32,203 nt of DNA from Patescibacteria group bacterium (GTDB lineage Bacteria > Patescibacteriota > Microgenomatia > Levybacterales > UBA12049): the NCBI GenBank assembly GCA_023484045.1, contig JAMDAA010000019.1:1-32203 (forward strand). Direction: 5' to 3'. The notes under the pieces were generated by a model. That model searched no databases. It was not told where the DNA came from and was given only the letters and a program-made list of their open reading frames with translations. Position 1 is the first letter of the stretch. Each line of letters opens with the position of its first letter. The position numbers were made by a program, and so were the translations under genes. Positions 2,742 through 22,205 of this stretch are shown one piece after another.

Positions 2742-5585
2742 ATGATTCAAACAATTAGAGTTTCTTCTACCGATGAGGGTCAGGACTTATCGGGCAACAA
2801 TCTTTATCGCGAGATAAGCAAATCTTATAAATTAAATAATCTCAAAAAAGTAAGATGCGTAAAGATATACCGCCTAGAAAACATAAGTCAAAATCAAGCA
2901 AAAATACTCGCCGAGAAGTTATTCAGCGAAAATATAAACCAAAAATACTCCCTTAATAAATCTCTTATAAATGGAGCAAGCCACATTTTTGAGATATCTT
3001 ATAAGCCGGGAGTCATGAATCCGGAAGTTTCATCGATATTTAAAGCCGCTCGTGACTTAGGTATTAAACCATTAGCTGTTGATTCAAGTATCGAATATCT
3101 GTTTTATGGAGAAATTAAAAAAGAAAAAGTTGAGAAGATTATTAAAAAACTCAACTTGCTAAATCCAATTGTTGAACATATAGTTAGAATTCCGCCAAAA
3201 ACACTGGTCATAAAAGGCGCTATTGGCAAAACCCAAACAATTCCTATTAGAAAAATGGGCGATGATGAATTACTAAGACTCTCAAAAGACAAGCTTTTCT
3301 TAAATCTTGAGGAAATGAAAATTATTCAAAATTATTTTGTGAGAATAAAGCGGGATCCAACCGATTGTGAACTAGAAACTATAGCCCAGACATGGAGCGA
3401 ACATTGTGCCCATAAAACATTTAAAGCTCGCTTGACTATTGACGGAAAACAAAAACAACCCTTAATGACGCGTCTTAAAAAAGAAGCGCTAAAACATAAA
3501 AAAAATATCGTTTCCGCTTTTATCGATAATTCAGGGGTTATTGATTTTTACGACGGAATGGGAATTTGTGGAAAAGTAGAAACTCATAATAGTCCTTCTG
3601 CGATAGAGCCCTACGGCGGCGCAATGACAGGTAGTGGAGGAGTTTTTAGAGATATTTTGGGAACAGGAAAAGGGGCAAAAACAATTGCGTCAACAGACAT
3701 CTTTTGTTTTGCAAAACCAAATATGGATTTAAAAACACTTCCAGAAGGTTGTCTTCCCCCATCGTATCTTCTTAAGAGGGTCGTTGCGGGAGTAAGAGAT
3801 TATGGAAATCGAATGGGAATTCCGACTAATAACGGCTCCGTTCATTTCCATAATGATTTTCGGGCAAAACCGACAGTCATTGTTGGAGCGTATGGAATTA
3901 TTCCAAAAAAATATGCCCAAAAAGGTGAACCAAAAAAAGGAGATCTTATTATTGCAGTCGGTGGAAAAACCGGAAGAGATGGAATTCACGGTGCAACTTT
4001 TTCCTCGGGCGAAATGACCCATGACACGATCAACGTTAATTCTTCTGCTGTTCAAATCGGGAACGCTATTGAAGAAAAACGGACGTTCGATGCAATATTA
4101 GAAGCAAGAGATGCTAATTTAATAAGAGCTATTCAGGATTGTGGGGCCGGAGGATTTTCTTCAGCGATCGGAGAAATGGGACAAGAAATAGGAGTAAGTG
4201 TAAACCTTGACAAAGCACCGTTGAAATATCAGGGACTTTCCCCCTGGGAAATATGGATATCAGAATCTCAGGAAAGAATGGTGACTTCAGTCTCCAAGAA
4301 TAAACTTAATAAATTTTTAAAAATCTGCAAAAAATACAATGTGGAAGCAACTGTGCTCGGAAAATTCGATGGCAGTAAAAAATTAAAAGTATTTTATGGA
4401 AAAGAACTCATCTGTAATCTGGATTTGAAATTTCTGCATAACGGCCTTCCCCAAAGGGAAATGACTGCCTCACAAAAGCTTCAAAACAAAAAAATATCAA
4501 AAAATCCGGATTTACCAAAAACGAAAAAAGAATGGATAAGTATTTTAAAAAAAGTTTTATCCCACGAAAATATTTGCTCTAAAGAACCCGTTGTCAGGAT
4601 GTATGATCATTCTGTTCAGGGAACAAATTCTATGCAGCCATTTGCCGGAGAAAATTTCGACGGACCAAATGATGCCGCTGTTATAAAACCCATTCTTAAA
4701 AAACAATACGGAATGATTGTTTCCCATGGATTAAATCCCATTTTGAATAATATCGACCCGTATCGCGGGAGTATTTGGGCGGGGGTAGAAGCATTTTCAA
4801 ACTATGTTGCAGTTGGAGGAAATTATAAAAATTCCGCCATAATAAATAATTATATCTGGCCCTTCCCGGACAACGAATCTTTATGGTCTTTGGACAAATC
4901 TGTCGATGCGGTCATTGATCTTATGAAAGCTTTAGGCCTGCCTGTTGTTTCCGGCAAAGATAGTCTTTCGTCAACATACAGGGGGAAAGATGGAAAAATT
5001 ATAAAAATTCCGCCGGTTTTATGCATTTCCGTTTTTGGGAAAATCGAGAATGTCAAAGATACTGCTTCTTCTGATTTTAAAAAAGACGGATCTGTTATTT
5101 GTCTTATTGGAGAAATTGACTTTAAAAATATGGGCGGATCAATTTATTTCGATTTGAACAACATTAAAGGAGACACAGTTCCAGAGGTAAATTTAAAAAA
5201 ACTCCCTAAGATTTTTAACGCGATCTATAAGGGCATCCAAGGAAATAAAATTTTATCCGTTCACGATATAAGCGAAGGAGGACTAATCACCGCAATTTTT
5301 GAGATGTGTGCCGGCGGAAACTTTGGAGCAGAAATCGACATTGATATTTTCGGAAAACACAGATTAGACTATGCTCTTTTTAGCGAAAGCGCCGGCTGTT
5401 TTGTGATCGAAGTTGAAAACCAAAATATTGCCAAACAAATTTTTAAAGGCGTTGCTTTTGTGATTTTAGGGAAAACAAAAAAAGAAAAAACAATCCTTGT
5501 GAAAAAAAGAAATAATAATCTTTTTGAAGAAAATATTGATGAATTAAAAAAATCATGGCAGGATCCGATGAAAAAAATATTTTAA
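2742..5585 (+). CDS. purL: Phosphoribosylformylglycinamidine synthase, PurS-PurL fusion
   Basis: ATP-dependent amidation of FGAR to FGAM; ammonia is delivered by the PurQ glutaminase encoded next. At 947 residues it is intermediate between small PurL (~740) and the large one-chain enzyme (~1300). Roughly the first 150 residues look like a PurS-type domain (YKPGVMNPEVSSIFKAARDLG), fused to the PurL synthetase: QTWSEHCAHKTF, the KVETHNSPSAIEPYGGA nucleotide/metal region, GSGGVFRDILGTGKGAKT, DCGAGGFSSAIGEMG, then a second PurM-like half with VSGKDSLSSTYRGKDG and SVHDISEGGL. The glutaminase domain is absent from this chain, as expected with a separate purQ. Start ATG follows purC by 7 bases with only a weak purine-rich AAAGAAAG. 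Confidence 0.95.
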   Translation: MIQTIRVSSTDEGQDLSGNNLYREISKSYKLNNLKKVRCVKIYRLENISQNQAKILAEKLFSENINQKYSLNKSLINGASHIFEISYKPGVMNPEVSSIFKAARDLGIKPLAVDSSIEYLFYGEIKKEKVEKIIKKLNLLNPIVEHIVRIPPKTLVIKGAIGKTQTIPIRKMGDDELLRLSKDKLFLNLEEMKIIQNYFVRIKRDPTDCELETIAQTWSEHCAHKTFKARLTIDGKQKQPLMTRLKKEALKHKKNIVSAFIDNSGVIDFYDGMGICGKVETHNSPSAIEPYGGAMTGSGGVFRDILGTGKGAKTIASTDIFCFAKPNMDLKTLPEGCLPPSYLLKRVVAGVRDYGNRMGIPTNNGSVHFHNDFRAKPTVIVGAYGIIPKKYAQKGEPKKGDLIIAVGGKTGRDGIHGATFSSGEMTHDTINVNSSAVQIGNAIEEKRTFDAILEARDANLIRAIQDCGAGGFSSAIGEMGQEIGVSVNLDKAPLKYQGLSPWEIWISESQERMVTSVSKNKLNKFLKICKKYNVEATVLGKFDGSKKLKVFYGKELICNLDLKFLHNGLPQREMTASQKLQNKKISKNPDLPKTKKEWISILKKVLSHENICSKEPVVRMYDHSVQGTNSMQPFAGENFDGPNDAAVIKPILKKQYGMIVSHGLNPILNNIDPYRGSIWAGVEAFSNYVAVGGNYKNSAIINNYIWPFPDNESLWSLDKSVDAVIDLMKALGLPVVSGKDSLSSTYRGKDGKIIKIPPVLCISVFGKIENVKDTASSDFKKDGSVICLIGEIDFKNMGGSIYFDLNNIKGDTVPEVNLKKLPKIFNAIYKGIQGNKILSVHDISEGGLITAIFEMCAGGNFGAEIDIDIFGKHRLDYALFSESAGCFVIEVENQNIAKQIFKGVAFVILGKTKKEKTILVKKRNNNLFEENIDELKKSWQDPMKKIF

Positions 5586-5589
5586 AAAT

Positions 5590-6396
5590 ATGAAAATAAA
5601 ACCAAAAGTATTAGTTTTAAAGACAGACGGTACAAACTGCGACCAGGAGACTGCATTCGCTTTCGAACTAGCAGGTGGAAATACAAGAATTGTCCACGTA
5701 AATGAGCTCAGATCAAAACAAGAAAAGTTTAATAATTTTCAGATATTGGCAATTCCCGGAGGTTTTTCCTACGGCGACGACGTAATCTCTGGAAAAATTT
5801 TAGCGACTGAATTGACTTCTTATTTTGCGGAAGAACTTAAAAAATTTACGGGGAAAAAAGACACTTTAACGATCGGTATATGTAATGGTTTTCAGGTTCT
5901 TATTAGGACCGGACTTTTACCTTTTGGAAAATTAGGAAAAATGGAAGCAACCCTTACGAATAATGATTCCGGACATTTTGAATGCAGGTGGGTAAACCTT
6001 AAGGTAGAAAAAAATTCTCGCTGTATTTTCCTTAATGGAGTTTACCCTGAGGAACGAAGGGTTTCTTATCAAGTGGCCCATGGTGAAGGAAAATTCTACG
6101 CCGGAAATAATGTTTTAAATAAAATCGAAAACGAAAATCTTGTTGTTTTCCGCTATGTAGACAAAGAAGGAAAACAAACTCAAAGATATCCCTTAAATCC
6201 TAACGGAGCAATTAATGCGATCGCAGGAATTTGTGATTCAAGCGGACGGATTTTGGGACTCATGCCCCACCCGGAAAGATTTGTTTTTAGAGAGCAGTAT
6301 CCAAACTGGAGAAGATTAAATCTTGCCGAAAGGCGGAAAAAACCTCAAGGCCTCCCCATTTTTGAAAATATGATTAATTTTGTAAAACAAACATAA
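5590..6396 (+). CDS. purQ: FGAM synthase glutaminase subunit
   Basis: Class I (triad) glutamine amidotransferase that hydrolyses glutamine and passes ammonia to PurL. Catalytic residues can be read: nucleophile Cys98 in GICNGFQVL, and His227/Glu229 in LMPHPERF. GGFSYGDDVISGKILA forms the oxyanion region. At 268 residues it is longer than the ~225-residue PurQ that pairs with small PurL plus PurS, and its sequence resembles the glutaminase domain of large PurL; this fits the large-type PurL encoded upstream. It starts 4 bases after the purL stop with no clear Shine-Dalgarno site, so it is probably translated by reinitiation. Confidence 0.95.
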   Translation: MKIKPKVLVLKTDGTNCDQETAFAFELAGGNTRIVHVNELRSKQEKFNNFQILAIPGGFSYGDDVISGKILATELTSYFAEELKKFTGKKDTLTIGICNGFQVLIRTGLLPFGKLGKMEATLTNNDSGHFECRWVNLKVEKNSRCIFLNGVYPEERRVSYQVAHGEGKFYAGNNVLNKIENENLVVFRYVDKEGKQTQRYPLNPNGAINAIAGICDSSGRILGLMPHPERFVFREQYPNWRRLNLAERRKKPQGLPIFENMINFVKQT

Positions 6397-10084: not shown

Positions 10085-10210
10085 ATGACTAAAAAAATGG
10101 TTAAAAATTATGAGAAGAATAATCCCAAAAAAGCAATATTGATAAAAAGGGCTGTCAAACAAGGTTTTAAACAATATGGCGAAACCTTCAAAAGACTTGC
10201 CGAAGCCTAA
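10085..10210 (+). CDS. 41-residue probable antitoxin ORF preceding Doc
   Basis: Too short for the ORF track. Translation begins MTKKMVKNYEKNNPKKAILI and ends TFKRLAEA; it is strongly basic and should be helical. Support for its reality: a perfect TATAAT extended -10 box 6 bases before its ATG, and a 35-base overlap with the doc toxin downstream, the usual order of antitoxin then toxin. It lacks an obvious Phd DNA-binding domain and does not show the (S/T)xxxE(G/N) inhibitory motif of Fic antitoxins, so it would be a minimal or unrelated antitoxin. Function is inferred from position only. Confidence 0.6.
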   Translation: MTKKMVKNYEKNNPKKAILIKRAVKQGFKQYGETFKRLAEA

Positions 10211-10628
10211 GTGGATAGGGCCCGAGGATTTTGAGTTTATTTGCTTTAATCTCACCCGAGAACTCATGACTTTTGATGAGCCAATTCCTGATTATTCCAC
10301 AAGAGAAAAATCTCTTTTAGAATCCTCACTTGCACTGCCTAAACAGACTTTTGACAAAAAGTTACTCTATCCGACATTAGTCTCTCAGGGGATTGCATTA
10401 TTTTATTCGCTAATAAAGAATCATCCATTTGTTAATGGAAACAAAAGAATTGCCGTAATGAGCCTTTTGGTTTTTTTAAGGTTAAATGGAAAATGGTTAG
10501 ATATCCCGCCTAAAATGCTATATGAAGTTGCTGTTTTGGTGGCAGAGTCGGATCCAAAAAACAAAGAAAATATTATCAAAACAACGGAAACACTCTTTAA
10601 AAAATATTTAGTAAGCATAAAGAAATAA
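10176..10628 (+). CDS. doc: Doc/Fic-family toxin
   Basis: A 150-residue Fic-fold protein. The active-site motif is HPFVNGNKR (His83), matching the Doc pattern HxFx[D/N][A/G]NKR rather than the AMPylating HxFx(D/E)GNGR; the Lys in place of the second Gly is the feature that makes phage P1 Doc a kinase of EF-Tu instead of an AMPylase. By family knowledge it would phosphorylate EF-Tu and arrest translation. The start ATG lies inside the preceding 41-residue ORF (35-base overlap), so the two are co-transcribed and probably co-regulated. comM starts 21 bases after with its own -10 element. Confidence 0.85.
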   Translation: MAKPSKDLPKPKWIGPEDFEFICFNLTRELMTFDEPIPDYSTREKSLLESSLALPKQTFDKKLLYPTLVSQGIALFYSLIKNHPFVNGNKRIAVMSLLVFLRLNGKWLDIPPKMLYEVAVLVAESDPKNKENIIKTTETLFKKYLVSIKK

Positions 10629-16311: not shown

Positions 16312-17342
16312 AGCAGTTTTCCCTGTTTTTTATCTTCGGGGTGTCTGATATTCATATGTTTATACGCGGCTTTTGTCGCAACTCTTCCTCGGCTCGTCCG
16401 TTTTAAAAATCCGATTTGTAAAAGATAAGGCTCTATAACATCTTCTATTGTTAAAACATCTTCTGAAATCGTCGACGCGATCGTTTCGATTCCGACCGGT
16501 CCCCCATTGTGTTTCTCGATTATTGACAACATTAACTTTCTGTCAATATCATTTAAACCAAGCTCATCGATCTGAAGCATTTTTAAAGCATTTTCGATTA
16601 TATTTTTTTCGACATTTCCTTTTCCTTTTACTTGCGCAAAATCCCGCGCGCGTTTTAAAAGTTTTAACGCGATTCGCGGAGTTCCTCTCGCTCTTTTTGC
16701 AATTTCTTTTACACTTTCTTTGTCGATCGGCACATCCAATGTTTTAGATGCTTTTACAATAATCGATTCTAGTTCCGAAGGGTTATAAAAATTAAACCTG
16801 TGCACAACACCAAATCTGTCTCTAAGCGGTCCAGACAAAAGTCCCGCCCGGGTCGTCGCACCGATAATCGTAAAATGCGGAAGATCAAGTCGCAGGGTTC
16901 TTGCCGAAGGACCCTTGCCGACAATTATATCCAAACAATAATCTTCCATCGCTGGATACAAAGTTTCTTCTACGACTTTATTCAAACGATGAATTTCGTC
17001 GATAAATAGAACGTCGCCTTTTTCTAAATTAGTTAGAATTGATGCTAAGTCTCCTGCTCGCTCGATCGCCGGACCCGACGTAATCTTTATATTAACCTCC
17101 ATTTCTTTGGCAACTAAATAAGAAAGCGTAGTTTTTCCGAGTCCCGGTGGTCCATAAAAAAGAATATGTTCGAGGGGTTCTTTACGTTTTTTCGCGGCAG
17201 AAATTGCGATTCTTAAAGATTCTTTAATATTTTCTTGTCCGTGGAAATCATTCCAGGCTTTTACTCTTAAAGAATTAAGCAGGTTCTCCTCTTCCGCGAT
17301 CTTATTTTCAATGTTGTCTTCCTTGGTTTTCACATTTTTCAT
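16308..17342 (-). CDS. ruvB: Holliday junction branch migration ATPase RuvB
   Basis: Hexameric AAA+ motor that, with RuvA, drives Holliday-junction branch migration. Features: [13 protein letters not shown] at the start of the AAA+ core (normally LRPxxLxDFIGQ), Walker A GPPGLGKT (64-71), Walker [11 protein letters not shown], sensor 1 [20 protein letters not shown] with the arginine finger region, and a C-terminal winged helix ([33 protein letters not shown]). The 344-residue length is typical. The start ATG sits at the edge of a tandem 8-bp repeat (ACAATGAA), and the stop codon of the upstream four-helix-bundle gene lies in the neighbouring repeat unit 12 bases before it. No promoter is visible directly upstream, so it probably depends on upstream transcription. 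Confidence 0.97.
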
Positions 17343-17364
17343 TGTTTCATTGTTTCATTGTTTT
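17341..17364. repeat. Left arm of period-8 inverted element (3 x ATTGTTTN)
   Basis: Three tandem 8-base units, ATTGTTTC, ATTGTTTC, ATTGTTTT, followed by AG. On the minus strand they supply the TGA stop of the four-helix-bundle gene and run into the ATG of ruvB. They pair in inverted orientation with the CAAT units at 17734-17762. Confidence 0.8.
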
Positions 17365-17726
17365 AGTTTGTTATTCGTAAAGTTAATAAGTTGATGAATT
17401 TCTTTTGGGAGAATTTTCAGTTCTTCTAGAATATGTTCGTATTGTTCTTTTGATAAAAGTTTTCTAATTTTTGATTTCTCATTCCAGTCAAGGCCTTCTT
17501 TAACAGATCCAAAACTGTAATAATAGAATTTTGTTTTATCTTTTTTCCCAAATCTTCCAAATCCTTCCGCAATATTAGATGAGATCGAATCAATGACTGT
17601 AATGAATTGAACTCCAATTGTCTTTTGAGCAAACCATTCCCATTTAATAACTATGTCCCAAACATAATTAGACAAGGAAAGGGATCTCTTATAACAATCA
17701 ATATCATTGAGTTGTAAATATTTCAT
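17355..17726 (-). CDS. Four-helix bundle protein (S23/IVP family)
   Basis: A 123-residue all-helical protein of the family first seen in 23S rRNA intervening sequences and related to the Avd accessory protein of diversity-generating retroelements. Family hallmarks: LSLSNYVWDIVIKW in helix 1, the SISSNIAEGFGRFGKKDKTKFYYYSFGSVKE stretch (canonical 'NIAEGxGR...FxxfL.iArGS..E') in helices 2-3, and LKILPKEIHQLINF in helix 4. Proteins of this type are thought to bind nucleic acid; no enzyme activity is known. It lies between ruvA and ruvB, bracketed by inverted ATTG/CAAT repeat arms, and its last codons CAA TGA come from one arm. This looks like an inserted element rather than a ruv-operon gene. 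No confident promoter is seen. Confidence 0.88.
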   Translation of the reverse strand: MKYLQLNDIDCYKRSLSLSNYVWDIVIKWEWFAQKTIGVQFITVIDSISSNIAEGFGRFGKKDKTKFYYYSFGSVKEGLDWNEKSKIRKLLSKEQYEHILEELKILPKEIHQLINFTNNKLKQ

Positions 17727-17733
17727 CTTCTAA

Positions 17734-17762
17734 CAATGTTAGCAATGGAACAATCGAACAAT
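17734..17762. repeat. Right arm of period-8 inverted element (4 x CAAT units)
   Basis: CAAT begins at 17734, 17743, 17751 and 17759 (steps of 9, 8 and 8 bases). Reverse-complemented this is ATTGTTCG, ATTGTTCC, ATTGCTAAC, ATTGTTAG, the same unit family as the left arm. It ends 2 bases before the ruvA stop codon. Confidence 0.8.
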
Positions 17763-18355: not shown

Positions 18356-18364
18356 ATTATAACA
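18356..18364 (-). promoter_or_regulatory. Extended -10 promoter of ruvA
   Basis: On the minus strand, TGT followed by a perfect TATAAT (18361 down to 18356), 15 bases before the ATG; predicted leader about 8 bases. Confidence 0.6.
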
Positions 18365-18380
18365 TAAGAAGCTAAGAAGC

Positions 18381-18404
18381 ATTGTTAAATTGTTCGATTG
18401 CTAC
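18381..18404. repeat. Solitary half of the period-8 element (3 x ATTGYTNN)
   Basis: Three 8-base units ATTGTTAA, ATTGTTCG, ATTGCTAC with no facing CAAT arm nearby. It lies between the ruvA promoter and the end of the unknown gene upstream. Confidence 0.7.
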
Positions 18405-18417
18405 ACTATTATGGTAA

Positions 18418-19434
18418 TTATTGTTGTGGATTTTGATATTCAACTGCATTAGAAAGCATTTTCTCGAATTGGTCCTTGATTCCATCGGATGGCATCCAGT
18501 AAAGGGGTTTTTGCCCTGTTATCGCAACGATCCTTTCTATAATTTTTACGTCAGCCAGTCCAGTATTGAAAAGGATTACGGCTGCGGTTTCATCTCCCGA
18601 GACAACTGTCCACCCTTTGAAATCTTCGCTCTTTAATTTTCCGTCCTTTTTAAAGACCGCTATTTCTCCTTTTGCTTCCAACCAATCTCTCCAAACCGAT
18701 GTGGTCTTCCCATCTTTTCCAATTCTCATCAATATATCACCGGCATCATCGTCGCCTTCAACAATCACTTCTTCATATTCTCCAACTAAAGTATTATCCC
18801 AATTAAAAATATCATCAAGATAGACAAAACTATTCTTGTTGCCGGCAAATTCGATCCCGACCCGATCCCCTATTTTCAGCTCTATCGGATCTACAACTTC
18901 TACCCTTGCGTCTTCTGACTCTTCTTCCCTTTCTTTATCCTCGCCCCAATAATCTTCGGGGTTAAGTCTTCTATCAATCTCTTCTTCCTCTTCTCGAGTG
19001 TGCTTCATTAGTTTTGACATCGATCCGATGTTTAACTGAGGAGATGTAAGAATATTTATTAATGTTCTCGTCTCTTGTTCTGATAGAGTCCTTCGCGTTA
19101 CTGTTTCCGGCCCTGTCTCGAACGTTTTAAGAATTGATTTATCTATACCATTATCACTAAGAGAGAAAAGGGTACACTCTGTACCTTGATTTTCGAATAA
19201 CATTAGATGTTCCCTTGACTCATACTCTCCCATCTTTCGATATTGAATTACAAAATCCGCAACTACGTAATCTGTATCTTCTGAAAGATTTGAATTTATC
19301 GCCCTCGCATTATCGTGCTCCTCCACCGCCCTTCTGATTCTAGAAACAAATATCTGTTGAAGTTTTGTTTTTCTCTCCGCTTCTAAAAGAGGTTTTTCTA
19401 TTGTCGGATTTGGAGCTTCAGGTGTTCGTGGCAT
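18418..19434 (-). CDS. Unknown protein encoded between ruvC and ruvA
   Basis: I do not recognise this 338-residue protein. It is acidic and soluble with no signal peptide or membrane segment. A charged linker (REEEEEIDRRLNPEDYWGED, then EREEESEDARVEV) separates two parts: an N-terminal alpha/beta region and a C-terminal region beginning IELKIGDRVGIEFAG that reads like a small beta-barrel, ending with a basic/acidic helical tail. The track start (19470) is a TTG that is really the first three bases of the -35 box; the ATG at 19434 sits 7 bases after the -10 and is the likely start. It has its own promoter although it sits among ruv genes, so a link to recombination is only positional. Confidence 0.7.
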   Translation of the reverse strand: MPRTPEAPNPTIEKPLLEAERKTKLQQIFVSRIRRAVEEHDNARAINSNLSEDTDYVVADFVIQYRKMGEYESREHLMLFENQGTECTLFSLSDNGIDKSILKTFETGPETVTRRTLSEQETRTLINILTSPQLNIGSMSKLMKHTREEEEEIDRRLNPEDYWGEDKEREEESEDARVEVVDPIELKIGDRVGIEFAGNKNSFVYLDDIFNWDNTLVGEYEEVIVEGDDDAGDILMRIGKDGKTTSVWRDWLEAKGEIAVFKKDGKLKSEDFKGWTVVSGDETAAVILFNTGLADVKIIERIVAITGQKPLYWMPSDGIKDQFEKMLSNAVEYQNPQQ

Positions 19435-19441
19435 ACCAAGC

Positions 19442-19470
19442 TTTATACACTCTTTATTTATCCTTGTCAA
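19442..19470 (-). promoter_or_regulatory. Promoter of the unknown ruv-cluster gene (leaderless type)
   Basis: Minus strand: TTGACA (19470-19465), 17 bases, TATAAA (19447-19442), then 7 bases to the ATG at 19434. The promoter lies inside the track ORF, which decides the start. Confidence 0.75.
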
Positions 19471-19496
19471 TAGAATTTGGATTTAGAAACCAGTCA

Positions 19497-20012
19497 TTAG
19501 ACGCTAGTTCCTAGACGCTTATAGGAGAACGCGTGGGTTATGGCGATCGCAAGAGCGTCTGCGGCGTCGTCGGGCTTTGGAATTTCTCTTAAGCGAAGAA
19601 TTGTTTTTACCATTTTCCCGACTTGTTGTTTTTCTGCTCTTCCGTAACCCGTAACTGCGATTTTAACCTGTAACGGCGTGTAGATAAAAATAGGAATTCT
19701 ATTTTGTGATGCCGAAAGGATAACCACCCCCCTCGCCTGTCCGACCAAAAAAGCCGTTTTTGCGTTTGTGTTAAAAAATAATTCTTCGATCGAAAGCGCA
19801 TCCGGTTTTTCTTTTTTTATCAATTTTGAAATCTTTTCGTATATCTTCACCAATCTTTCGGAAACTTCAGTTTTTGAATCCGTCACAAAACACCCGTAAT
19901 TCTGAACTTTGAATTCCTGTCCTTGTTGTTTTTGATCTTTGATCTTTGATCTTTGATCTATTATTGCCCATCCCATTCTCGCAAACCCCGGATCAATCCC
20001 TAATATTCTCAT
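19497..20012 (-). CDS. ruvC: Crossover junction endodeoxyribonuclease RuvC
   Basis: Dimeric RNase H-fold resolvase that cuts Holliday junctions. The catalytic acids can be read: Asp7 in GIDPG, Glu76 in LSIEELFF, Asp149 and Asp152 in KPDDAADALAIAITH. NAKTAFLVGQARGVV and GYGRAEKQQVGKMV match the DNA-binding and dimer helices. At 171 residues it is near normal length, but the loop after the first strand pair is expanded by about ten residues (RSKIKDQKQQGQEFKVQ), largely encoded by four copies of a 7-bp repeat. The last codons (GTSV) also come from a short 7-bp-periodic tract. It has an extended -10 promoter divergent from the DUF5678 gene. Confidence 0.96.
   Translation of the reverse strand: MRILGIDPGFARMGWAIIDQRSKIKDQKQQGQEFKVQNYGCFVTDSKTEVSERLVKIYEKISKLIKKEKPDALSIEELFFNTNAKTAFLVGQARGVVILSASQNRIPIFIYTPLQVKIAVTGYGRAEKQQVGKMVKTILRLREIPKPDDAADALAIAITHAFSYKRLGTSV
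19931..19958. repeat. Heptanucleotide tandem repeat inside ruvC (TTTGATC x4)
   Basis: Four perfect copies of TTTGATC in a row. Because 7 is not a multiple of 3, gain or loss of one copy would shift the ruvC frame after about residue 19. Confidence 0.85.
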
Positions 20013-20095: not shown

Positions 20096-20299
20096 ATGAA
20101 AATCAAAGCGATCGATTTAAAAAAAACTCTAGCTCCATATAAATCTGGCTGGGTTGCAATTAATGGTAAAAATAAAAAAGTTGTTGCTCATGCTAAAAAT
20201 TTTGGTGATTTATCAAAAAAAATAAAAGACCAAAAAGATATCTTCTTAATGCCCGCCTCTCAAAATTATTTTGGTTTTGTGACTTTATTCAATGCGTAA
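20096..20299 (+). CDS. DUF5678-like small protein
   Basis: A 67-residue protein matching the DUF5678 pattern: a Lys-rich start, then YKSGWVAINGKNKKVVAHAKNFGDLSKKI, i.e. 'G.WVAi..g.kvva...d..el..k'. Function of the family is unknown; it appears mostly beside small proteases or TA-like genes. It overlaps the downstream retropepsin-like gene by 8 bases, so the two are translated as a pair. It has its own extended -10 promoter. Confidence 0.7.
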   Translation: MKIKAIDLKKTLAPYKSGWVAINGKNKKVVAHAKNFGDLSKKIKDQKDIFLMPASQNYFGFVTLFNA

Positions 20300-20708
20300 A
20301 TACCCTTATTACAATCCAGCTGAAAATATACTTAAGCCTTGGATTACTGTTCGTCTCGGATATACTAAAACCCACAAGTTAACACCTGCACCAATCACAG
20401 CCCTTATCGATTCAGGCGCTGACGTTTGTTTTTGCTCCATTGAAATCGGTTCTTTTCTTGGAATAAATTTCAAAAATAAGCCAACAAAAACTTTTTATAC
20501 CGCCAACGGTAGTCCTTTGATAACAATCCCTGAGAAAATAACGCTTTACGCATGCGGAAAAAATTATGAATGCATTTTTTATTTTGCCGATAATTTGCCT
20601 CACGAAACTCCTATTATTCTTGGTCAGATAGGTTTTTTTGATCATTTTAAGATCACTTTTAATTTTGAAAATAAAGAAATTGAAATAGTTTATAATTACG
20701 AAAATTAG
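20292..20708 (+). CDS. Retropepsin-like aspartic protease
   Basis: A 138-residue single-domain protein with the retroviral-type aspartic protease motif ALIDSGADVCFCS (catalytic Asp in DSGA) and the second conserved block TPIILGQIGFFDHF (normally ILGxxGFLxxF). Such proteins act as homodimers, each chain giving one catalytic Asp. No membrane segment. It overlaps the DUF5678-like gene by 8 bases, which suggests that the small protein is partner, substrate or inhibitor (inference). The following 8 bases run straight into the -35 of the next gene. Confidence 0.85.
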   Translation: MRKYPYYNPAENILKPWITVRLGYTKTHKLTPAPITALIDSGADVCFCSIEIGSFLGINFKNKPTKTFYTANGSPLITIPEKITLYACGKNYECIFYFADNLPHETPIILGQIGFFDHFKITFNFENKEIEIVYNYEN

Positions 20709-20998: not shown

Positions 20999-21721
20999 AT
21001 GAAAAGACAAAAACTAGCAGTCGAACCGAGAAAAGTTTTGGGTAAAAAAGTTAAGAAACTTCGAAAAGAAGGAGTTCTTCCTGCAAATATTTATGGCAAA
21101 AACATAAAATCGATCGCGGTCCAGGTTCCGCTTAAAGAATTCGAAAAAACGTACAAAGAAGTCGGAGAAACTGGCCTTATTGACCTAGAATTAAAAGGAG
21201 AGTTAAAACCGGTTCTTATCCACAACGTTCAACTCGATCATATTACCGATCTTCCCCTCCATACTGACTTTTATCAGGTCAACCTTAAAGAAAAAGTCAA
21301 AACCGCAGTCCCGCTTATTTTGGTCGGCGAAGCAAAAGCGGTTACTGATAAAGTCGGAATTTTATTACAGCCACTTTCTGAAGTCGAAGTCGAAGCTTTG
21401 CCAGAAGATTTACCCGAAAATGTCGAAGTAAAAGTCGATTACCTCGCAAATATCGACGAGCAAATTACTGTTGGAGATCTAAAAGTACCGCAGGAAATAA
21501 CGGTTCATACCGATCCGTCGCAGGTAATTGTAAAAGTAACAGAACTCGTTAGCAAAGAAGCGGAAGAACAGGCAGCTGTGGAAGCTGCGGCCGCGGCCGA
21601 AGCCAAGGCAGAAACTGCAGAAGGAGAAGTTCCGGCAGAAGGCGCTGAAGTTACTGCAGAAGCTAAACCAGAAGAAGCTAAGCCCGTAGAAGAACCGAAA
21701 CAAGAAGAAAAACAACAATAA
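20999..21721 (+). CDS. rplY: 50S ribosomal protein L25 (Ctc/TL5 type)
   Basis: Binds 5S rRNA in the large ribosomal subunit. The N-terminal L25 domain (LAVEPRKVLGKKVKKLRKEGVLPANIYGKN, about residues 1-95) is followed by the TL5/Ctc C-terminal beta domain (VPLILVGEAKAVTDKVGILLQPLSEVEVEALPEDLPENVEV, to about 180), then a low-complexity Ala/Glu/Pro tail of about 55 residues. Total 240 residues. The tail is rich in E and A and probably disordered. A palindromic ATTG/CAAT element begins one base after the stop and may act as terminator for this gene and the convergent one. Confidence 0.95.
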   Translation: MKRQKLAVEPRKVLGKKVKKLRKEGVLPANIYGKNIKSIAVQVPLKEFEKTYKEVGETGLIDLELKGELKPVLIHNVQLDHITDLPLHTDFYQVNLKEKVKTAVPLILVGEAKAVTDKVGILLQPLSEVEVEALPEDLPENVEVKVDYLANIDEQITVGDLKVPQEITVHTDPSQVIVKVTELVSKEAEEQAAVEAAAAAEAKAETAEGEVPAEGAEVTAEAKPEEAKPVEEPKQEEKQQ

Positions 21722-21785
21722 ATTGTTAAAATTGCTACATTGCTCAATTGCTAAAAACAATTTAACAATGAAACAATCAAGCAAT
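21722..21785. repeat. Complete 'empty' period-8 ATTG/CAAT palindrome
   Basis: ATTG starts at 21722, 21731, 21739 and 21747; CAAT starts at 21758, 21766, 21774 and 21782. The right arm is exactly periodic in 8. Folded back, about 22 of 31 positions pair, with all four ATTG/CAAT cores in register around a short A-rich centre. It fills the gap between the convergent rplY and TPR-like genes. Confidence 0.85.
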
Positions 21786-21791
21786 AGTCTC

Positions 21792-22205
21792 TTATTTTAG
21801 AACCTTTTCAAATTTTCGCCCAGCTTCAAAATTCGGATCCAAGGCTAAAGTTTTTTGCAGATAATAAGAAGAACGTTGTTTATTCCCGAGTTCATATTCC
21901 AAAAGCGATATTTTAAAATAGGCATCTCTATAATCTTTGTATTTCTCTGCAATCCCCTGCCAAAACACAATTTCTTTTTTTACGCTGTCACGCTTTAGGT
22001 CAAACGCTTTTTTATTTTCGTAAGCCCTGTAAAAATCAAGTCCTCCCAAGGCTATGGCAATAGCCAAGGTTACGAGCAAAAGATCAAAAAATACCCCAGT
22101 CCATCTCGAAGTCTGGATCTTTTGAGTCTCGACTTTTTTCCCGATCTTTTCCCGATCTTTTCCCGAAACGGCCTTTTTAGGCTCGTTCGAACTTTGCTTT
22201 TTCAT
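21792..22205 (-). CDS. Membrane-anchored TPR-like small protein
   Basis: A 137-residue protein: a basic cytoplasmic N-terminus (residues 1-33, many Lys), one membrane segment (GVFFDLLLVTLAIAIALGGL, about 36-55), then a helical region of about 80 residues ending YRDAYFKISLLEYELGNKQRSSYYLQ and LDPNFEAGRKF, which reads as TPR or TPR-like repeats. Topology N-in with the helical part outside is likely from the positive charges. Function unknown. It overlaps the deformylase gene by 29 bases and is probably co-transcribed with it. Confidence 0.65.
   Translation of the reverse strand: MKKQSSNEPKKAVSGKDREKIGKKVETQKIQTSRWTGVFFDLLLVTLAIAIALGGLDFYRAYENKKAFDLKRDSVKKEIVFWQGIAEKYKDYRDAYFKISLLEYELGNKQRSSYYLQKTLALDPNFEAGRKFEKVLK

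Follow-up and report, generated by a model that had tools for sequence, protein, structure and literature searches.

A palindrome of facing ATTG arrays after rplY, probably the gene-less form of a four-helix-bundle element

What is the palindrome of short tandem repeats that follows rplY in this Patescibacteria genome (G000), and how is it related to a second set of facing repeats which, in the same 32,203-nt stretch of contig JAMDAA010000019.1 (the window), encloses a gene for a four-helix-bundle (4HB) protein of the family PF05635? The palindrome is probably a gene-less form of this 4HB element, which would be moved in trans and resembles the intervening sequences (IVSs) of 23S rRNA genes. 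That the same repeats border this widespread 4HB gene suggests that gene and repeats make up a hitherto unrecognised family of tiny mobile elements. Searches of one open-access library gave no report joining PF05635 to such arrays, and the link between facing repeat arrays and PF05635 elements looks new. To our knowledge, PF05635 is a common bacterial family with no known function outside the relatives of diversity-generating retroelements (DGRs), and we know of no explanation for the 7-8-bp short tandem repeats that have been catalogued for decades. The regular bounding of PF05635 genes by facing arrays makes it testable whether the protein binds its own arms and whether it moves them.

Structure of the palindrome and its dispersed relatives

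The palindrome comprises 64 bases (21722-21785) 3' of rplY. Its left arm (21722..21750, + strand) starts with the first base after the rplY stop codon and holds four ATTG cores of the unit ATTGYTNN, which begin at 21722, 21731, 21739 and 21747 (spacing 9, 8 and 8). The right arm (21758..21785, - strand) faces it over a 7-bp loop with four CAAT cores at 21758, 21766, 21774 and 21782, all exactly 8 bp apart. Direct reading thus bears out an earlier interpretation made from the sequence alone (the sequence-only reading), which described four ATTG units facing four CAAT units and an exactly periodic right arm. Its further statement that the cores stand in register holds for three of the four core pairs, which have a common centre, and fails for the outermost pair, which is 1 bp off. 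The junction is convergent, as had also been proposed, with rplY (L25/TL5; 20999..21721, + strand) ending at 21721 and a 137-aa TPR-like open reading frame (ORF) with a weak TPR match (21792..22205, - strand) running toward it from 22205 to 21792. The palindrome has no match to a known RNA family in Rfam.

The pattern ATTGN4ATTGN4ATTG is found six times in the window when up to one mismatch is allowed, compared to 0.47 times in shuffled sequences, none of 100 of which reached six. Without mismatches, the whole genome contains 18 such triple-core matches against none for a reversed control pattern, and two facing pairs are present in the window compared to none in 200 Markov copies of it. This genome-wide scan, which the sequence-only reading had proposed, therefore places the pattern neither at chance level nor at this locus alone. 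ATTG arrays were also present in 43 of 60 relatives, and facing palindromes with three cores per arm occur at at least 118 loci in a species-level genome collection, distributed over Patescibacteria, Bacteroidota, Chloroflexota, Acidobacteriota and Ignavibacteria. Across 100 arrays, the unit has T or C at position 5 and T at position 6 in over 90%. Many of the copies outside Patescibacteria retain ATTG with a changed spacer, for example GAGY, GGGT or AAGG; ATTG is not thereby established as the sole core, since the search pattern itself required it. A facing-array palindrome was also seen in seven viral contigs (L268-L274).

In 60 loci of relatives and in loci of the genome itself, 23 of 27 pairs of neighbouring arrays are in facing orientation, and four account for all other orientations together. 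Facing arrays are mostly separated by 4-62 bp, or by about 375 bp where a 4HB gene lies between them, and the arms most often have four cores (range 2-7). Left and right arms match in hairpin register beyond permuted arms (z 5.2 and 15.2), which would fit either a fold-back structure or arms that were copied one from the other. For elements situated outside long ORFs, the median distance to a stop codon is 11 bp, compared to 153 bp for random intergenic places.

PF05635 genes between facing arrays

The gene-carrying element lies between ruvA and ruvB and takes up about 420 bp in the window. One arm (17341..17360, + strand) has three cores, overlaps the stop codon of the 4HB gene and abuts ruvB, and the other (17734..17762, - strand) has four cores and lies directly upstream of the start codon. 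The gene between them (17355..17726, - strand) belongs to PF05635/TIGR02436 and is the founder of a subfamily termed A1 here. Its product matches both profiles well above their cut-offs (PF05635, 61.3 bits versus 33.8; TIGR02436, 64.4 versus 24). The structure predicted from 45 sequences (pLDDT 96.6) has PDB entry 2GSC as its best match (TM 0.87); the model would make the protein a four-helix bundle nearest to Xcc0516 that resembles Avd, and it also matches Avd structures, namely 4DWL and DGR ribonucleoprotein structures, at a TM of about 0.7.

Subfamily A1 contains the nearest relatives of the window's 4HB protein, most of them 55-79% identical and distributed across phyla. Members were found in 23 of 188 relatives and in 28 of 47 palindrome-bearing genomes. 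Among 42 A1 loci with a score of at least 130, a number that includes a few records reached twice, at least three cores stand on both sides of the gene in 27 and at least two in 31. Others have variant cores such as ATGG or ATAG, or displaced arms. In the typical A1 layout, the array on the 5' side extends into the ATG and resumes, as the 3' array, at the stop codon, so that the element is little more than an ORF plus arms.

Arms are not restricted to this subfamily. When 170 bp upstream of a gene were aligned to the reverse complement of 170 bp downstream, the mean arm score was 37 in 139 PF05635 genes compared to 17.5 for mismatched pairs and 17.6 for 223 control ORFs from the same loci. A score of at least 24 was reached by 81% of the 139 genes and 5.4% of the controls (p 2e-45), and by 82% of 34 PF05635 genes picked regardless of palindromes. 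The clear arms have a period of 7 in 49 genes and of 8 in 33, and the period clusters on the protein tree (15 changes versus 26; 0 of 500 shuffles). Some 7/8-bp periodicity is present in the flanks of control genes as well, partly because these genes neighbour 4HB genes. The notion that ATTG arrays surround every 4HB gene proved wrong, as the arms of most PF05635 genes are built from other units. An example is a 4HB gene elsewhere in the genome (L124 7308-7736, contig C33) with period-7 AAAGTTC-like arms, which adjoins a five-core ATTG array. Another 4HB gene (L247, about 5520-6090) is flanked 5' by a complete palindrome and 3' by a degenerate one.

In addition, the number of arrays rises with PF05635 copy number (rho 0.60, p 5e-7; 60 genomes, the own genome included), with a partial correlation of 0.55 given RAYT genes. 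Of 33 genomes with three or more array matches, 32 have PF05635, as do all 40 palindrome-bearing genomes that were tested, the latter result being weak alone because palindrome-bearing lineages are rich in PF05635. A search of plasmids gave one 4HB match (Pseudanabaena), with no clear arrays by eye.

Absence from a congener and the origin of the palindrome

A comparison of presence and absence between strains had been suggested, and one member of the same genus was compared, the congener G001, whose sequence is about 80% identical to the window and collinear with it. No triple-core match is found in about 800 kb of this genome. The palindrome is missing from its rplY site, where the 3' end of rplY differs from that in G000 and continues to ...EDQA-stop. 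The ruvA/ruvB junction of the congener has neither the 4HB gene nor the arms, and G000 has about 420 extra bases there between CATTTT and TATTTT. Three further gene-less copies are likewise missing, one between comEA and comEC and two on contig C33, where the extra stretches in G000 are roughly 75 and 100 bases; together with rplY and ruvA/ruvB this makes five sites. The rplY 3' junction of the other relatives fetched also gave no array, so that a gain in G000 is favoured at this site.

The sequence-only reading had seen in the palindrome the arms of the 4HB element minus the gene, as either a non-autonomous derivative or an empty parent form. The first part is strengthened by the copies dispersed here and in many genomes. 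The empty parent is less likely because ruvA/ruvB in the congener is without arms as well as gene; judging from these sequences, the 4HB gene is less likely to have simply entered a palindrome still standing there. We hold it quite likely that the palindrome represents the gene-less type within a minimal mobile-element family whose full form consists of an array, a PF05635 4HB gene and the reverse-complement array. The full form would carry ATTGYTNN repeated 3-5 times, the gene and the inverted copy of the array, and the gene-less form would be the two arms joined via a short loop. When single-stranded, as DNA or RNA, the arms may fold back. Relatives of the 4HB protein form pentamers, and among them is Avd, a cofactor of reverse transcriptase; the 4HB protein itself may bind the repeat units. 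With or without its gene, the element may be copied or inserted near gene ends with the help of an enzyme encoded elsewhere. A simple correspondence of one arm core per protomer of the pentamer gave no clear fit with arms that usually have four cores.

Several observations weigh against such mobility. The element was not found to encode a mobilising enzyme, and no A1 gene was found in the array-rich genomes G015 and G017, which are incomplete (56% and 84%). The comEA/comEC palindrome occupies the place of a different spacer of similar length in the congener and is no clean insertion, and no target-site duplication is readable at the sites aligned to this only about 80% identical genome. As a single congener was compared, gain and loss are not separated at every site. 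Furthermore, spacers vary from copy to copy and are no more alike within a genome (0.506) than between genomes (0.508), so that recent verbatim copying is not seen, and there are many lone arrays, some of them inside long ORFs.

The last two points agree with the alternative that the arrays are simple sequence which arose locally through replication slippage and inverted template switching, with no mobility involved, and polymerase slippage has been proposed for heptamer repeats (PMC4692102). This is nevertheless unlikely, since dozens of unrelated sites across phyla share one core and one facing orientation, one protein subfamily is bounded by the same arms, and the congener has none of the arrays of which G000 has 18. 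The relation between array number and PF05635 number and the proximity to stop codons would also be expected if the 4HB protein were a regulator that binds the arrays as operator-like sites near gene ends, the sites being spread by selection instead of movement. Such a role is rather improbable, as the arms directly adjoin the 4HB gene at both ends in the manner of terminal inverted repeats, the unit sequence varies widely among relatives of the protein and no common class of neighbouring gene was seen.

The palindromic and intergenic nature of the copies also recalls repetitive extragenic palindromic (REP) elements moved by a RAYT/Y1 HUH transposase, and G000 encodes nine Y1-domain genes while the congener has none. 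Once PF05635 is allowed for, however, the correlation between array number and Y1 copies vanishes (partial r 0.007, p 0.96), and mobilisation by RAYT/Y1 was rejected as a candidate. The array-rich genomes G017 and G045 are without a Y1 match, and the arms are tandem arrays where a REP element would have one hairpin and a tag tetranucleotide. A REP-like origin is very improbable. The edge profile of 100 arrays has no conserved tag of the GTAG/GGAG type outside the cores, other tags not having been searched for. Finally, the bidirectional terminator put forward by the sequence-only reading, which the convergent junction and the minus-strand RNA fold (z -2.85 relative to shuffles) would suit, finds no support and is very improbable, as no terminator-like site was called at the palindrome, no T-run follows the stem 3' in the manner of the GC-rich stem plus T-run of intrinsic terminators, the + strand folds no better than shuffles (z -1.0), other copies sit between co-directional genes such as comEA-comEC, and the sister species lacks the palindrome.

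Known systems and further arrays

The closest counterparts of the 4HB element are the IVSs of 23S rRNA genes with an S23/IVP ORF, such as the 428-nt Coxiella IVS (PMC4990558), which also occur in rRNA genes of the candidate phyla radiation (PMC11270868). Both have the same protein family, the same size and an ORF bounded by complementary ends. Unlike an IVS, the element here lies outside rRNA genes, between ruvA and ruvB, and its arms consist of 8-bp units in tandem in place of one 28-bp repeat; its gene-less copies are abundant and stand between protein genes.

Short tandem intergenic units are likewise known as the facing heptamers GGGAATC of Xanthomonas, with 70-75 pairs in convergent orientation near a neighbouring ORF, and GGGGAYT of Nostoc (PMC4692102), and as the TAACTGA repeats of Beggiatoaceae, for which the mechanism of spread is reported as unknown (PMC4679880). 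The unit here is the 8-bp ATTGYTNN, and those reports link no protein to the repeats. The period of 8 also sets these arrays apart from the 7-bp units of short tandemly repeated repetitive (STRR) sequences, although other PF05635 genes have 7-bp arms. X. campestris also encodes Xcc0516, the solved PF05635 pentamer, which reportedly comprises five four-helix bundles (Lin 2006, as cited in PMC3936711).

Like REP/REPIN elements with RAYT, the palindromes are short, intergenic and dispersed, probably in trans, but they show no corrected link to Y1 copy number, have an array structure and are associated with a four-helix bundle. As in miniature inverted-repeat transposable elements, a gene-less derivative has ends in common with a gene-carrying candidate parent, here the same ATTGYTNN arms, but the putative parent is without a transposase and no target-site duplication was seen. 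The fold predicted for the 4HB protein is shared with Avd of DGRs, whereas neither a reverse transcriptase nearby nor a template/variable repeat was seen in the window.

A wider generalisation, which we neither favour nor disfavour, is that PF05635 genes and the 7-8-bp tandem repeats known from Xanthomonas, cyanobacteria and other sources are the two halves of a single, widely distributed class of minimal mobile elements. In this class, a gene for an Avd-like pentameric protein would stand between facing arrays, protein lineage would set unit and period, and gene-less palindromes would be non-autonomous copies, perhaps spread via an RNA or single-stranded DNA intermediate.

Further features of the window include a lone ATTGYTNN array with three cores (18381..18400, + strand) beside a 350-aa ORF (18418-19470) without a family match, both within a stretch (18364-19519) that is missing from G001. 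An ORF at 20292-20708 with a sub-threshold match to families of aspartyl proteases (PF13975, E 0.0065) lies within a stretch of about 960 bp that is also missing there, and a Fic/Doc family (death-on-curing) ORF is located at 10176-10628. In other genomes, ATTG arrays occur at matching places in apparent coding regions of different genera (L393/L399 and L382/L391/L400). By eye, these regions are uvrC and a glycosyltransferase-like gene, and the uvrC-like pair differs in its number of units (three versus six).
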